Shown here: piece by piece, positions 4,229-27,069 of the stretch
How the letters are laid out: each line of letters begins with the position of its first letter
Position numbering within the stretch: the stretch's first letter is position 1
From: a bacterium
GTDB lineage: Bacteria; Vulcanimicrobiota; Vulcanimicrobiia; Eremiobacterales; Eremiobacteraceae
Direction: 5' to 3'
DNA: 32,234 bases
Assembly (NCBI GenBank): GCA_902812405.1
Contig: CADDZI010000028.1
Coordinates: 1-32,234, forward strand
The notes under the pieces: model-generated
Told to the model about the DNA's origin: nothing
What the model saw: the letters and a program-made list of their open reading frames with translations, nothing else
Databases searched by the model: none
Made by a program: the position numbers and the translations under genes

Positions 4229-4252
4229 GTAGCGGTCGCGCTTGCGCGACCG
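4229..4252 (+). repeat. REP element, plus orientation, downstream of RAYT gene
   Basis: GTAG followed by a perfect 9-bp stem CGGTCGCGC/GCGCGACCG with a TT loop. It lies 20 bp beyond the RAYT stop codon and opposes the REPs on the other side of that gene. Confidence 0.88.
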
Positions 4253-4271: not shown

Positions 4272-4724
4272 TTATAGGTAAGGATCCGCCACCCCCATAA
4301 AAGGGTAGTCACCTGGATCTTTCACCAAACCCGCGCGTATCGGATTTCCGAGAAGGTACCGCACAACAAGTCCGGGTGGGACATGCGGCCGGACGATACG
4401 ATCGAAGTATCCGCGTTGCCACCGCAGACCAGGAACCATTCGCCGGATGCTTATTTTCATCATCGCGACTATCTGTGAAAGATGGCGTCCTCGGGTACGG
4501 ATGAACAGATGCACATGGTCGGGCATCACGCAGTACGCATAGAGCCAGAATGTCTGGCGAAGATGCTCTTCTCGAATTGCCGCCACTGCGTGCTGTGCGT
4601 TGACTGGATGCCGAAACCATGGCAGGCGGTTCTTGCAGCAGAACGTCACAAAGGCAGACGTCGGCCGGCGATAGTCGTGCCTCAGGTAACGGGGAGGTGT
4701 GCGGAAATCCACGCCGTCCTTCAA
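4272..4724 (-). CDS. rayT: REP-associated tyrosine transposase (RAYT, Y1/HUH family)
   Basis: Single-strand DNA transposase-like protein of the IS200/IS605 TnpA superfamily that in other genomes cuts and joins REP hairpins. From the TTG at 4724 the protein has 150 aa and GGAG sits five bases upstream; the frame is open to 4790, but that longer start falls inside a REP. The HUH motif MPDHVHLF (His70, His72), WQRGYFDRIVR (102-112) and YLLGNPIRAGLV (Tyr123 as likely nucleophile) are all RAYT hallmarks. All catalytic residues are present, so it may be active. It is bracketed by REPs at 4229-4252, 4780-4803 and 4835-4858, the arrangement expected of a RAYT with its cognate REPs. Confidence 0.88.
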   Translation of the reverse strand: MKDGVDFRTPPRYLRHDYRRPTSAFVTFCCKNRLPWFRHPVNAQHAVAAIREEHLRQTFWLYAYCVMPDHVHLFIRTRGRHLSQIVAMMKISIRRMVPGLRWQRGYFDRIVRPHVPPGLVVRYLLGNPIRAGLVKDPGDYPFMGVADPYL

Positions 4725-4779
4725 TAACGCTCCGACGAGAAACGTCAAGGGGGCGGGGGCAACGCTAGGGTGCTCCCGT

Positions 4780-4858
4780 CGGCCGCGCAAGCACGGCCGC
4801 TACAGGGCTACAGGCAAAGAAGAGACCCTTCCGTCGGCCGCGCAAGCGCGGCCGCTCC
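4780..4858 (-). repeat. Two REP elements upstream of the RAYT gene
   Basis: 4780-4803: CGGCCGCGC, AA, GCACGGCCG (one stem mismatch) then CTAC, i.e. GTAG on the minus strand. 4835-4858: perfect stem then CTCC, so the minus-strand tetranucleotide is GGAG instead of GTAG. Both tetranucleotides are known in characterised REP families. Confidence 0.87.
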
Positions 4859-7195: not shown

Positions 7196-7330
7196 CGGTC
7201 GCGCAAGCGCGACCGCTACGGATAGATGGCATCTTCTCGGGCGCGCAAAGGGGAGAGGTTCTCTCGGGCGCGCAAGCGCGACCGCTACGGATAGATGGCA
7301 TCTTCTCGGGCGCGCAAGCGCGACCGCTAC
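7196..7330 (-). repeat. Cluster of three REP elements with repeated spacers
   Basis: REPs at 7196-7219, 7265-7288 and 7307-7330, all ending CTAC (GTAG on the minus strand), plus a REP cut off after its first arm at 7237-7249. The spacer starting GGATAGATGGCATC occurs twice (7220-7248 and 7289-7317), so the cluster grew by duplication of REP plus spacer. It fills the gap between mreB and the glycosidase gene. Confidence 0.85.
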
Positions 7331-17391: not shown

Positions 17392-17474
17392 GTAGCGGTC
17401 AGCCTTGGCCGACCGTCGCGCTTGCGCGAAGCGAGCTCCTGCAGCGTTCTGTAGCGGTCGCGCTTGCGCGACCG
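17392..17474 (+). repeat. REP pair upstream of atpI
   Basis: REP at 17392-17415 with a diverged stem (CGGTCAGCC, TT, GGCCGACCG; one mismatch) and a perfect REP at 17451-17474, both with GTAG. Between them 17416-17431 is a REP-like palindrome without the tetranucleotide. Confidence 0.83.
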
Positions 17475-21932: not shown

Positions 21933-22117
21933 TCGTCGGTGGCCGTCACAGCGTCGTCCGTTTCTGTCTCAGGGTCGTCCGTTTCTGTGGCCGCATCGTC
22001 GGTGTTTGTCTGAGCATCATCCGTGCCCGTCTCGGCATCGTCAATGCCACCTCGGCATCGCCGGTGCCTATCTCAGCCCTGGCACCTATTTCAGCATCGT
22101 CCGTGCCCGTCACGGCA
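21933..22117. repeat. 21-bp tandem repeat array between glyA and upp
   Basis: About nine degenerate units: seven are exactly 21 bp (21933, 21954, 21975, 21996, 22017, 22058, 22097), one is 20 bp (22038-22057) and one 18 bp (22079-22096). In the upp frame the units from 22037 downward encode an acidic heptad such as DDAETGT, DDAQTNT, DDAATET, DDPETET, DDAVTAT. The last unit contains the glyA stop codon. Confidence 0.9.
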
Positions 22118-23363
22118 CGCCGAAGCGAGATGTCAATTCGTACACCCGCGCGCGCAGCGCCTCCCGCTGCGTCCCGGACGCCACGTCATCCATCGCCGCA
22201 CTCATGATCGCCGCGATTTCCTCCATCTCCGGCTCGCGCAGGCCGCGGGTCGTCACAGCCGGGGTGCCCACGCGAATGCCGCTCGCAACGGCGGGCGGTT
22301 GCGGGTCAAACGGAATCGTGTTCTTGTTGACGGTAATGCCGATGCTGTCGAGGTACGCCTCGACGGCTTTGCCGGTGAGGCCCCGCACCGACACGTCGAC
22401 CAGCATGAGGTGGTTGTCGGTCCCGCCGGTGACGATTCGCAAGCCTCTTTGCTCGAGTGTGCGCGCCAGAGCGCGCGCGTTGGCGACGACTTGGGCCGCG
22501 TACTCTCGAAACGCGGGTTGCAGCGCCTCTCCGAATGCGACTGCCTTGGCGGCGATGATGTGCATGAGAGGACCGCCCTGGATGCCCGGGAAGAGCATCT
22601 TGGCGATGCCCTTGCCGCGCTCGGCGTCGCACATGATGGCGCCGCCCCGCGGGCCGCGCAGTGTCTTGTGGGTGGTCGTCGTAATGTAGTCGGCGTGACC
22701 GACCGGGCTGGGATGCAGGCCCGCGGCGATAAGCCCTGCGACGTGCGCGATGTCGGCGAGCAGCAGAGCACCGACCTCGTGCGCGATGTCAGCAAACGCC
22801 TGCCAGTCGGGGATGCGCGAGTACGCACTCCAGCCGGTAACGATCATCTTCGGCTTGTGCGCTTTGGCAATCGCGCGAATCTCATCGTAGTCGAACTGCT
22901 CGCTGCGGCGGCTGACGCCGTACGTGACGACGTTGTAGAGCTGGCCCGAGAACGACACCTTGCTCCCGTGGGTGAGGTGACCGCCGTGATCGAGCGCAGT
23001 GCCCATGATCGTGTCGCCCGGGCGCAGCGCCGCGAAGTACACCGTCATGTTGGCCTGTGCGCCTGAATGCGGTTGAACGTTGGCGTACTCAACGCCGAAC
23101 AGCGCCTTCAGGCGCGCGACCGCAAGGGTCTCGACGATATCCACGTACTCGCAACCGCCGTAGTAGCGCCGGCCGGGATAGCCTTCGGCGTACTTGTTGG
23201 TCATGACGCTGGCGGCCGCTTCCCGCACCGCCGGACTGACGTAATTCTCGGACGCGATCAGCTCGAGGTTGCGCTGCTGGCGTTCTTCCTCCAGGGCAAT
23301 GGCGCGGGCTACTTCAGGGTCGGTGCTAGCCAGCGACAGACTTTCCAGCAGGCGCGCGTTCAC
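22110..23363 (-). CDS. glyA: Serine hydroxymethyltransferase
   Basis: PLP enzyme converting serine and tetrahydrofolate to glycine and 5,10-methylene-THF; 417 aa, normal length. [37 protein letters not shown] (34-70), DHGGHLTHG (125-133), DIAHVAGLI (204-212) and the PLP lysine Lys233 in [14 protein letters not shown] are present. The GTG start at 23363 makes a GTGA overlap with the rpiB stop; the longer open frame upstream runs through rpiB and is spurious. The stop lies in the 21-bp repeat array. Confidence 0.97.
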
Positions 23364-23860
23364 GAGCCGTTCTCCCGGGCCACAACGCCGGCGTCGAGCG
23401 CATCGATGGCCGGGTAGTCGTCGATCTCGCGCACGCGGCGCTGGTGGCGCCCACCTTCGGCCTCCGTCGTCAGCCAGACGTCGAGGCACTCGCGGACCAT
23501 CTCCCAGCCCGTCAGACGTTCGCCAAAGCAGATGACATTGCAGTCGTTGTGCTGACGCGACAACTTGGCCGAGTAGGGCTCGGCGATCGACGCGGCGCGC
23601 ACGCCCTTGACTTTGTTGGCGGCCATCGCGACGCCGATGCTCGATCCGCAAACCAGCACGCCTCGATCGCACTCACCGCGGGCCACGGCTTCTCCGACGC
23701 GAAAGCCAATGAGCGGGTAGTCGACCGGGTCGGTCGAGTAGGTGCCGAAGTCGACGACCTCGTGCCCCAGCCCGCGCAGGTGCTCGGCGATCATACCCTT
23801 GTAGCCGAAGCCTGCATGATCGGCGCCGACGGCGATCCGGAAGGTTTTGGGGGAAGCCAC
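23360..23860 (-). CDS. rpiB: Ribose-5-phosphate isomerase B
   Basis: Interconverts ribulose-5-P and ribose-5-P. 166 aa; N-terminal [10 protein letters not shown] (12-21) with Asp14/His15, and [21 protein letters not shown] with the catalytic-position Cys71; [11 protein letters not shown] follows. The GTG start at 23860 has GGGAGGAG about 11 bases upstream, the best ribosome site in this operon, marking rpiB as the likely first gene of the glyA-upp-comEB-wecA-wecB-atpZ run. Confidence 0.94.
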
Positions 23861-23942
23861 AGAGCGTCGTTCTCCTCCCGTCCGGGGGCCGCCTTTTGGC
23901 GCCCGACGGCGCTTGCAATAAGGCGTCGCACCGCGGGGAACC

Positions 23943-24124
23943 GTAGCGGTCGCCCTTGGGCGACTGACGGAACGTGGCCTCTTGAACCGTAGCGGTCGCC
24001 GTTGGGCGACCGACGGAACGTAGCCTCTTGCAACGTGGGTCCAACGCGTTACGCCGTCTTCGGTCGCGCAAGCGCGACCGCTACACCAAAAGGCGCACTC
24101 CCCGCTCGCGCAAGCGCGGACCGA
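23943..24124. repeat. REP cluster upstream of rpiB
   Basis: Plus-oriented REPs at 23943-23966 (stem CGGTCGCCC/GGGCGACTG) and 23989-24012 (CGGTCGCCG/GGGCGACCG) share the following GGAACGT(G/A)GCCTCTTG spacer (period 46). A minus-oriented perfect REP lies at 24061-24084 and a decayed one at 24104-24124. The first copy shows a base-pair flip relative to the common form. The gap 23861-24145 holds nothing else recognisable. Confidence 0.85.
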
Positions 24125-24145
24125 GGAGAGGCTCTAAAAAAAGAA

Positions 24146-24631
24146 TTACTTCTTGGGACGATTACCAGCCTGGTGCATACGATCCAGCTGAGCGAAGATC
24201 GCATCCATCCCGGACGCCAGACGCTCCCGCAAGGCACGCACCTCCTCCACGCTGCCGCCGACCGGGTCTTCAACATCCCCGCCGCCGGCAACGTCGCCCC
24301 ACGCGACGACCTTCTCGCGCGAGCGGGGGAACGTCGTCTGCACGAGATCGCGCTGAGCCCCCGTCATGGTGACGACCAGCGTAGCTGCGGCAACCAGCCC
24401 CTCGTTGATACGCCGCGAACGATGTTCGTCCAGCGTGATACCAACCTCACGCAGCACCGCTTCGGCCACCGGCGCAGCCGGGAAACCGGGCAGCGCCTGC
24501 GTTCCGGCGCTCATGATCCGAACGCGATGTCCACGGCGCGCGGCTTCCGCCACGGCAAGTGCTTCGGCCATCGCGCTGCGGCACACGTTGTGCGAGCACA
24601 CAAAGAGAATCACAGGGCGGCCGCCATTCAC
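24146..24631 (-). CDS. Low-molecular-weight protein tyrosine/arginine phosphatase (YwlE-like)
   Basis: 161 aa from the GTG at 24631, chosen because AAGGA lies eight bases upstream and the family begins just before the P-loop. P-loop VCSHNVCRSA has the CX5R signature (Cys12, Arg18); the general acid Asp122 is in VEDPVGGS, where the usual DPF/DPW reads DPV. Its location next to rpiB-glyA-upp matches B. subtilis ywlE, an arginine phosphatase; substrate here is inference. It is separated from rpiB by a REP cluster. Confidence 0.88.
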   Translation of the reverse strand: MNGGRPVILFVCSHNVCRSAMAEALAVAEAARRGHRVRIMSAGTQALPGFPAAPVAEAVLREVGITLDEHRSRRINEGLVAAATLVVTMTGAQRDLVQTTFPRSREKVVAWGDVAGGGDVEDPVGGSVEEVRALRERLASGMDAIFAQLDRMHQAGNRPKK

Positions 24632-24731
24632 GGCTCGCGTCCTTCCGCGGCGCGCCGGGCGCGACCTGGCCGGCGTGCACAACCTCGCCGGTAACCCCGC
24701 CGGGCGACGCCACCTTCATGAACAACAGCCG

Positions 24732-26611: not shown

Positions 26612-26654
26612 CGGTCGCGCACACCTTTGCGTGGAGGTCGCGCTCGCGCGACCG
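26609..26654 (+). repeat. Interrupted REP at the stop codon of the TIM-barrel gene
   Basis: TAG CGGTCGCGC supplies the stop codon and the first hairpin arm; about 23 bp are inserted before the second arm TCGCGCGACCG. The tetranucleotide is CTAG rather than GTAG. Confidence 0.65.
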
Positions 26655-26704
26655 AGAGAACGTAACGCCATGCGGATCTTCACACCCAAGAGGCAACGTT
26701 CCAT

Positions 26705-26806
26705 CGGCCGCGCAAGCGCGGCCGCTACAGAACGTCCGCTCATCGGCCGCGTAAGCGCGGCCGCTACAGAACGTCCGCTCATCGGCCGCGCAAGCGCGGC
26801 CGCTAC
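26705..26806 (-). repeat. Triple REP array with 39-bp period
   Basis: Three REPs at 26705-26728, 26744-26767 and 26783-26806, each CGGCCGCG(C/T)... then CTAC, separated by identical 13-bp spacers (AGAACGTCCGCTC). The middle copy has T for C at the end of the first arm. It lies between the TIM-barrel gene and the 6S RNA terminator. Confidence 0.9.
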
Positions 26807-26857: not shown

Positions 26858-26869
26858 GGCTGCGTTCCC

Positions 26870-27069
26870 CAAAGTGCCGTTACCCGCCAGGGATTTGAAC
26901 CCGCTTCTCGCAGGTGGGTGCCGACCCGGCCTCCGTCAGGCTTCCCTCGCACGGAGGGCATGCGCAAGGAGGCTCGGAGTACCGCTCCCTTTTGTGATTG
27001 TGTTGGATCAATCACCAAAGACGAGCTCTCGCACACCCCAGGGAGCAGGCCCGCACAAGGCGGTGCCTC
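26870..27069 (-). ncRNA. ssrS: 6S RNA
   Basis: Regulatory RNA that mimics an open promoter and sequesters housekeeping RNA polymerase. Read on the minus strand, GCGGGCCTGCTCCCTGG matches the 5' part of the E. coli 6S central bubble (GCGGGCCAGTCCCCTG). At 26958-26944 a CCCTC-CGTGC-GAGGG hairpin followed by AAGCCTG parallels E. coli CTCGG-TCCGT-CCGAG-AAGCCT. The apical end forms GTGATTG/CAATCAC, and the 3' segment has GGGTTCAA as in E. coli. A promoter sits exactly upstream. The size is about 200 nt; ends are estimated to within 10 nt or so. Confidence 0.85.

Follow-up and report, generated by a model that had tools for sequence, protein, structure and literature searches.

Compensated base-pair changes in the stems of GTAG REPs set the two ends of REPIN units apart in an Eremiobacteraceae genome

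Introduction

What keeps a short hairpin paired while its sequence changes, and what could the hairpin be kept for? The question is raised by two repeat copies at 23943-24012 of the window, by which we mean the whole stretch of 32,234 nucleotides analyzed here (contig CADDZI010000028.1 of assembly GCA_902812405.1). The original prediction, drawn from the letters of this DNA, was that the stems of these REPs change from copy to copy with pairing kept, by a T-A to C-G change and an inner G-C to C-G flip. Two independent compensated positions would then argue that the hairpin itself is selected, either as a transposase substrate or as an RNA structure. REPs are common bacterial repeats, and the mode by which REP-associated tyrosine transposases (RAYTs) move them is unsettled. 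The GTAG REPs and the REPtrons, which combine such repeats with a RAYT gene, were the subject of Nunvar et al. 2010 (PMC2817692) and Di Nocera et al. 2013 (PMC3733652). Among the papers listed by our literature searches, none links the Eremiobacterota or Vulcanimicrobiota with REPs or RAYTs.

Results

The repeat and its copies

The canonical repeat is a 24-mer, GTAG-CGGTCGCGC-TT-GCGCGACCG, in which GTAG precedes a 9-bp stem closed by a TT loop. The genome has 306 copies with at most three mismatches and a reversed-pattern control has none. This copy number is probably a lower bound, because the REP seems to break the assembly. Contigs start or end at a REP in C38:1-24, C87:1-24 and C13:1-24, at the ends of C4 and C12, and at the first bases of the window. 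Most copies (301 of 322 sampled) lie outside the genes predicted by a simple codon-usage gene finder, in DNA that is 83% predicted coding. The family has what characterizes GTAG REPs: a palindrome of 20-40 nt after GTAG or a near variant, a high copy number and a mainly intergenic location. Copies with more than five mismatches were excluded from the covariation and orientation counts, and those with more than six from the analysis of doublets. The reversed control over 787 kb gave 3 chance matches at five mismatches and 19 at six, and the weakest copies therefore include some chance matches.

The window holds 16 convincing copies of the 24-base repeat (Table 1). A 17th candidate, located in an ORF at 943, leaves five positions unpaired. 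The REPs at 23943-24084 stand between genes for a ribose/galactose isomerase (RpiB-like) and a low-molecular-weight phosphatase. A 6S RNA at 26862-27047 on the minus strand (RF00013, 94.3 bits) adjoins the four-REP cluster at 26631-26806, and 21-base tandem repeats occupy 21933-22042.

Table 1. Repeats, repeat units and genes of the window
Feature	Position	Strand	Model
REP, C-G type, perfect, at contig end	4..27	-	
REP, 3' side of RAYT gene, canonical T-A stem, perfect	4229..4252	+	
RAYT gene (REP-associated tyrosine transposase), 172 aa, TTG start	4272..4790	-	PF01797, NF047646
REP overlapping 5' end of RAYT reading frame, C-G type at pair 4, T.G at pair 7	4780..4803	-	
Second REP 5' of RAYT gene, GGAG tetranucleotide, C-G type, perfect stem	4835..4858	-	
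REP, canonical, perfect, first of tandem trio	7196..7219	-	
REP, pair 4 broken (T.C)	7265..7288	-	
REP, pair 4 broken (T.C)	7307..7330	-	
REP, pairs 7 and 8 flipped (GC, CG), one unpaired position	17392..17415	+	
REP, canonical, perfect	17451..17474	+	
Ribose/galactose isomerase gene (RpiB-like)	23360..23860	-	
REP, pair 8 flipped G-C to C-G, G.T at pair 2	23943..23966	+	
REP, tandem duplicate of 23943 copy, pair 8 flipped, G.G at pair 9	23989..24012	+	
REPIN: two unlike hairpins, GTAG outside, 48-nt spacer	23989..24084		
Canonical REP, convergent partner of 23989-24012, 72 bp start to start	24061..24084	-	
Low-molecular-weight phosphatase gene	24146..24682	-	
Second REPIN: T-A type end 26631-26654 (+), C-G type end 26705-26728 (-)	26631..26728		
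REP, tandem extra, C-G type, period 39, one unpaired position	26744..26767	-	
REP, tandem extra, C-G type, period 39, perfect	26783..26806	-	

A RAYT gene flanked by the same repeats

The genome has a single match to PF01797, the Y1-transposase family, and it is in the window. The protein passes the NCBIfam model REP_Tyr_transpos (NF047646) by 0.8 bits (80.8 bits, cut-off 80), and its best PDB match is the TnpA-REP structure 4er8 (E 0.042). Its HUH motif has histidines 92 and 94, and its tyrosine 145 aligns with Y115 of Escherichia coli TnpA-REP, of which Y115F is a catalytic mutant according to a passage of PMC8266576. REPs lie on both sides of the gene with GTAG outside, the canonical type on the 3' side and the C-G type on the 5' side. 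With a RAYT gene encoding the HUH motif and the catalytic tyrosine, and inverted REPs on either side, the locus is, as far as its sequence tells, a REPtron as PMC3733652 and PMC8266576 use the term. The two types that flank the gene (C-G 5', T-A 3') are also the ones joined in 33 of the 55 convergent doublets described below. An insertion sequence of the IS200/IS605 kind is contradicted by the single gene copy and by a score of 21.8 bits against the IS200 model NF033573, which has a cut-off of 55.

Compensated changes in the stems

The copy at 23943-23966 reads GTAG-CGGTCGCCC-TT-GGGCGACTG and that at 23989-24012 reads GTAG-CGGTCGCCG-TT-GGGCGACCG, both on the plus strand. Relative to the canonical CGGTCGCGC/GCGCGACCG, both carry the predicted inner flip from G-C to C-G, at pair 8. 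Pairing is kept at that pair, but each copy also has one non-Watson-Crick position, G.T at pair 2 in the first and G.G at pair 9 in the second. These two copies are tandem duplicates, 93% identical over 46 bases, and thus represent one event. The T-A to C-G change is real and affects pair 4, but it is absent from 23943-24012: the copies of the window that carry it are those at 4-27, 4780-4803, 4835-4858, 26705-26728, 26744-26767 and 26783-26806.

Compensated double changes are in excess across the 322 sampled copies. Compared with the expectation for independent arms, they number 97 vs 34.87 at pair 4, 19 vs 1.71 at pair 7, 21 vs 1.95 at pair 8, 8 vs 0.43 at pair 9, 3 vs 0.54 at pair 5 and 1 vs 0.52 at pair 3; there are none at pairs 1, 2 and 6. 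A one-sided ascertainment gave a similar picture. Among 348 GTAGCGG sites in 787 kb, taken with the right arm ignored, 101 have a perfect 9-base right arm, vs 19.2 expected after redistributing the right sides over this set of sites; a perfect partner occurs, one or more times, for nine distinct left arms.

We also ran a custom, R-scape-like covariation test, whose null of 100 simulated alignments was tree-based, on 205 copies; 4 of 209 copies, close to the ends of stretches, were left out. The test found an excess of covariation, with pair 4 passing narrowly: its score of 171.6 is barely above the largest simulated value, 167.3. Pair 8 came second among all column pairs (E about 1.2) and pair 7 ranked fifth (E 9), and the remaining stem pairs were nowhere near significance among these copies. 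Of the two independent compensated positions that had been proposed, pair 4 is therefore solid, whereas pair 8 is rightly placed but rests on few events and fails the tree-based test when taken alone. Much of the covariation across copies is the product of a few founder changes multiplied via copying. Intermediates with one broken pair exist as well, e.g., T.G at pair 5 (one 24-mer, 4 copies) beside the T-A end state (2 copies).

Units with unlike ends

The typical unit is a convergent doublet, or REPIN, of about 95 bp: a GTAG-hairpin, a spacer with inverted-repeat ends, and an inverted hairpin-CTAC. The consensus of the spacer ends is near AGAGAACGTAACGCCTTG and its inverse, with some positions variable. 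The 1.42 Mb examined contain 55 convergent doublets within a 200-bp limit. Start-to-start distances are mostly 66-80 bp, and 39 doublets fall at 60-82 bp, so the doublets have the preferred spacing and the conserved spacer ends of REPINs.

The two REPs of a unit are usually of different classes. They are unlike in 44 of the 48 scorable convergent doublets, vs 29.4 expected on shuffling the same ends, a count that omits the 7 of 55 lacking intact pairs 4, 7 and 8. In the fresh stretches alone, fetched after the idea had been recorded, 17 of 18 doublets are unlike (11.0 expected, P 0.0018), in a set whose second batch came from contigs known to carry perfect canonical copies and thus favors these copies. 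The one convergent doublet of the first batch, drawn from contigs poor in REPs, points the opposite way (4 mismatches between, 5 within) and was retained.

Mismatches tell the same story when those between the two REPs are compared with those within their hairpins. Of the 55 convergent doublets, 51 have more of the former, one has fewer and three tie; the former prevail in 38 of the 39 spaced 60-82 bp and in 25 of 27 divergent doublets (2 ties). Among tandem pairs, 19 have more between and 14 more within, with 83 ties; those of the fresh set also tilt towards an excess between (9 vs 2, p 0.033). The excess is notable because point mutations should strike pairing within and between hairpins alike. 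When both hairpins of a 60-82 bp doublet are perfect, which is the case in 17, the ends always differ at two or more stem positions (17/17). One perfect canonical end is found in 32 of the 55 doublets and two such ends in none (4.6 expected, P 0.002). The 23989 copy, with its flipped pair 8, faces the canonical copy at 24061, and the 23943 and 23989 copies are thus one end of an unlike unit. That the ends of a unit are told apart by compensated differences goes beyond what had originally been predicted.

Predicted folding of the units

How would such differences affect the fold of a unit? We modeled 30 native units with DNA parameters, setting aside 9 of the 39 units because a hairpin in them has two or more unpaired positions. 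The long REP:REP hairpin is predicted to be favored over two separate hairpins by a mean of 4.8 kcal/mol. Making the ends equal raises this predicted preference to 18.2 or 16.9 kcal/mol, depending on the end used (paired tests, p 2e-6). Unlike ends would hence weaken the long hairpin by 12-14 kcal/mol and leave the small hairpins intact. Since the small hairpins stay intact in the folding model, the compensated changes would weaken the long form and not the substrate. The mean predicted probability of separate hairpins is 0.10-0.12 for native units and 0.000 with equal ends, and the clover is the favored prediction in 4 of the 30 native units. Within units, the spacer arms lack the covariation described for SBW25 REPINs, with 7.92 of 16 positions paired vs 8.25 with shuffled partners (P 0.91).

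RAYTs and repeats of the family

RAYTs were found in 10 of 14 genomes of the family (numbered here as G002, G003 and so on), 15 in total, with pairwise identities of 29-83%. All 15 have the HUH histidines and 14 have the tyrosine column, the exception being a gap in G009b, a two-frame match. At G009:C4 (L162, L164), the RAYT match is in two pieces in different frames, with the break between query residues 133 and 142; this is probably a decaying gene still beside REP-like hairpins. A G-tetranucleotide with a perfect hairpin of at least 7 bp is present in 27 of the 30 RAYT flanks and in at least one flank of all 15 genes, whereas the same combination occurs in 93 of 2000 260-nt pieces drawn at random from these genomes and in 17 of 2000 after shuffling. 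The stems beside the 15 RAYTs are of 13 types, because the orthologues of G003 and G010 share stems; those of G008b and G012 have a common core, GGCGGACC.

The REP of the window itself has 0-2 matches in each of 60 relatives, the same as the reversed control. When seven sister genomes are searched, each with one arm of its own stem pattern, the matches number 492 in G003, 325 in G010, 275 in G002, 210 in G005 and 185 in G012, with none in the reversed controls; G008 has 50 vs 11 in the control and G007 has 17 vs 2. Sampled stretches of the first five genomes all have an excess of compensated cells over the expectation for independent arms: 12 vs 3.6 in G003 (5 broken), 11 vs 3.3 in G010 (2 broken), 6 vs 0.45 in G012 (4 broken), 5 vs 0.3 in G005 (5 broken) and 3 vs 0.4 in G002 (9 broken). 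In G002 and G005, compensated changes do not form the majority of the stem variation. Together with the excess of covariation in the genome of the window, these counts indicate that the hairpin itself is kept. The compensated stem changes of the original prediction are confirmed and its interpretation is supported.

Pooled over the five sister genomes, mismatches between REPs exceed those within hairpins in 12 doublets and never the reverse, with 11 ties. G002 accounts for nine of these ties: 9 of its 11 doublets tie, with stems mostly equal, and many of its 22 listed units fold as a single long hairpin. Because G002 is mostly equal-stemmed, unlike ends are not needed everywhere. Examined by eye, the 22 units of G002 (L265-L294, L369-L374) include compact ones of 63-66 nt with equal stems and often with unlike loops, TTTAT vs GCTAG.

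G003 and G010 each have two RAYTs (L133, L141, L144, L131), one with GTAG...AGCT stems beside it and the other with GGAG...AGAT stems, and 3 of 4 convergent doublets of G003 have one end of each kind. It is conceivable that such a unit has one end for each of two transposases. Contigs C8, C9 and C10 of G005 (L375-L387) are lopsided in the strands of their REPs (15:1, 0:10 and 2:22), beyond the strand bias of their predicted genes (p 0.015, 0.007 and 0.003), and in C10 the REPs that lie between plus-strand genes are on the minus strand in 5 of 5 cases. Insertion into single-stranded DNA at the replication fork could yield one-stranded REPs, but GC skew has no consistent polarity, and the one-strandedness of these REPs is therefore not used as evidence.

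Discussion

Why the hairpin stays paired and the ends differ

We consider it probable that these GTAG REPs are non-autonomous partners of the RAYT, in which stem pairing is kept and the ends of a unit are driven apart for folding. Between the two options of the original prediction, a transposase substrate or an RNA structure, we favor the substrate as what keeps the hairpin, with a RAYT gene in the window and the same repeats on either side of it. The RAYT would need a folded single-stranded DNA hairpin beside GTAG, a requirement that we infer from the pattern of covariation and from published in vitro work on other TnpA-REPs. As reported in a passage of a 2021 study (PMC8266576), cleavage by the Stenotrophomonas maltophilia TnpA, which acts on a perfect palindrome, is affected or nearly abolished when the stem contains a mismatch, and swapping stem bases to their complements has no drastic effect. 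If the RAYT must find a folded hairpin, as we propose, changes that break the stem would tend to be dead ends, and compensated ones could keep being copied.

The same changes could have a second effect. Two equal ends would fold together as a single long REP:REP hairpin. Compensated changes would drive the ends apart, keeping the pairing of each end with itself and spoiling its pairing with the partner, and the balance would tip back to two separate hairpins that the RAYT can bind. More tentatively, we propose that the end hairpins are selected to be self-complementary yet mutually mismatched, so that a unit offers two RAYT substrates and not one long inert hairpin; we regard this as a serious possibility that falls somewhat short of probable. 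If true, compensated changes are the mutations by which separate folding improves and the substrate stays whole, and this would account for the preference for heterodimers. Counting against the proposal are the long fold still predicted for most native units, the mostly equal stems of G002, the spacer arms that do not covary within units and the frequency of broken pairs.

Unlike ends could also go back to one progenitor unit, with a T-A and a C-G end, that was copied many times, in which case the difference would be unselected and the pairing inherited. Part of the pattern may have this origin, since 33 of the 55 convergent doublets share the T-A x C-G combination. The covariation of pair 4 stems from few events on the tree (3 double changes on the same branch), and tandem copies are of the same type in 57 of 68 cases, both as expected from a founder. 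However, perfect canonical ends have several types of perfect compensated partner (CGGCCGCGC 15, CGGCCGCGT 3, CGGCCGTGC 2, CGGCTGCGC 1, CGGTCGGCC 1 and CGGTCGCCC 1), and unlike ends therefore arose more than once. They also differ at other pairs elsewhere, i.e., at pair 9 in G003 and G010 (C-G vs A-T) and at pairs 4 and 6 in G012, and the 5' and 3' stems are unlike beside the RAYTs G008a, G002 and G001. We thus find a single founder unlikely.

Another possibility is that unlike ends shield the unit from hairpin nucleases such as SbcCD and do not serve the RAYT. Di Nocera et al. suggested escape from nucleases in a passage where the preference of most families for heterodimers is said to have "no obvious explanation" (PMC3733652). 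The 12-14 kcal/mol that the long hairpin is predicted to lose with unlike ends would suit such an escape. Yet the genome of the window, which is 96.65% complete and whose lack of a match is for this reason weak evidence, has no SbcD match at E 0.001. The matches in 10 of the 14 family genomes are all below the family cut-off, and they include one in the equal-ended G002. A remote or unrelated nuclease could take the place of SbcCD. Escape from nucleases is in our view distinctly unlikely.

Mutation could in principle produce the compensated changes by itself. Quasi-palindrome correction copies one arm of a hairpin onto the other and generates such changes with no selection involved. The stems are short near-perfect palindromes, as this process requires, and the computed data cannot distinguish a double change made by templating from two changes selected in succession. 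However, correction across the long palindrome of a REPIN would equalize its ends, the opposite of what is observed, and intermediates with a single broken pair (T.G at pair 5) do exist. We regard templated mutation alone as improbable.

Finally, the hairpins could be kept as RNA, e.g., in the protection of mRNA 3' ends, attenuation or termination. A role as RNA has been argued for many REPs from GT pairs and location, in a part of PMC3733652. In the genome of the window, 134 copies lie between convergent genes (117 gaps) and only 13 between divergent genes (118 gaps), but the purging of insertions that land in promoters would just as well make copies scarce in divergent gaps. REPs follow the strand of the genes in the co-directional gaps of G003 (10 vs 1), G005 (21 vs 5) and, weakly, G012 (7 vs 3), and the preference in G003 and G005 could reflect either a role as RNA or strand-biased insertion. 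There is no such preference in the window's genome (50 same vs 51 opposite) or in G002 (5 vs 5). Moreover, G.T mispairs are not in excess over A.C among distinct copies (56 vs 52, p 0.39), 23800-24200 has no terminator-like site (a GC-rich hairpin followed by a T run), no Rfam family matches the 23943-24012 site, the sole Rfam match of the window being the 6S RNA, and a role as RNA would not account for the presence, on the flanks of a RAYT, of the very stem that is abundant in its genome. RNA-level selection is not supported in the genome of the window, and we hold it to be very improbable as what keeps the pairing.

The reading of the REPs as RAYT partners with ends driven apart has consequences beyond this locus. 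The family is a natural experiment, with 15 RAYTs at 29-83% identity, 13 hairpin types and 185 to 492 one-arm matches in each of five sister genomes. "Paired within, mismatched between" is a countable prediction for every REP-bearing genome, and it addresses a question left open in print, namely, why heterodimers prevail (as put in the passage of PMC3733652 quoted above).

Comparison with known systems

The family shares with IS200/IS605 elements a HUH single-tyrosine enzyme and hairpins at the ends, but it has one gene copy and hundreds of small copies without a gene. It is closer to the GTAG REPs and REPtrons as portrayed in parts of PMC3733652 and PMC2817692: GTAG before a short GC-rich palindrome, hundreds of mainly intergenic copies, a RAYT flanked by REPs, subfamilies with alternative complementary residues in the stem and a preference for heterodimers, there in most families. 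Heterodimers and alternative complementary residues were thus known. Unlike in those papers, stem differences from end to end are here weighed against mismatches within hairpins, and this within-versus-between test and its fresh sample are what we add.

Like the E. coli BIMEs made of y and z REPs, as described in a section of PMC8266576, the units join two REP types in inverse orientation into one mosaic element. The E. coli REPs have bulged stems and lengths of 35, 29 and 37 nt, whereas the stems described here are equal in length, mostly perfect and different by swapped base pairs. The REPINs of Pseudomonas fluorescens SBW25 resemble these units in being convergent doublets with complementary spacer ends, for which clover and long-hairpin folds were proposed; Bertels and Rainey 2011 suggested the clover, as opposed to the long hairpin, as the form on which RAYTs act (PMC3116915). 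The SBW25 elements are described there as symmetrical, with compensatory changes in the hairpin formed with the spacer. In the genome studied here, by contrast, the spacer arms do not covary, and it is in the REP stems that compensated changes set the two ends apart.
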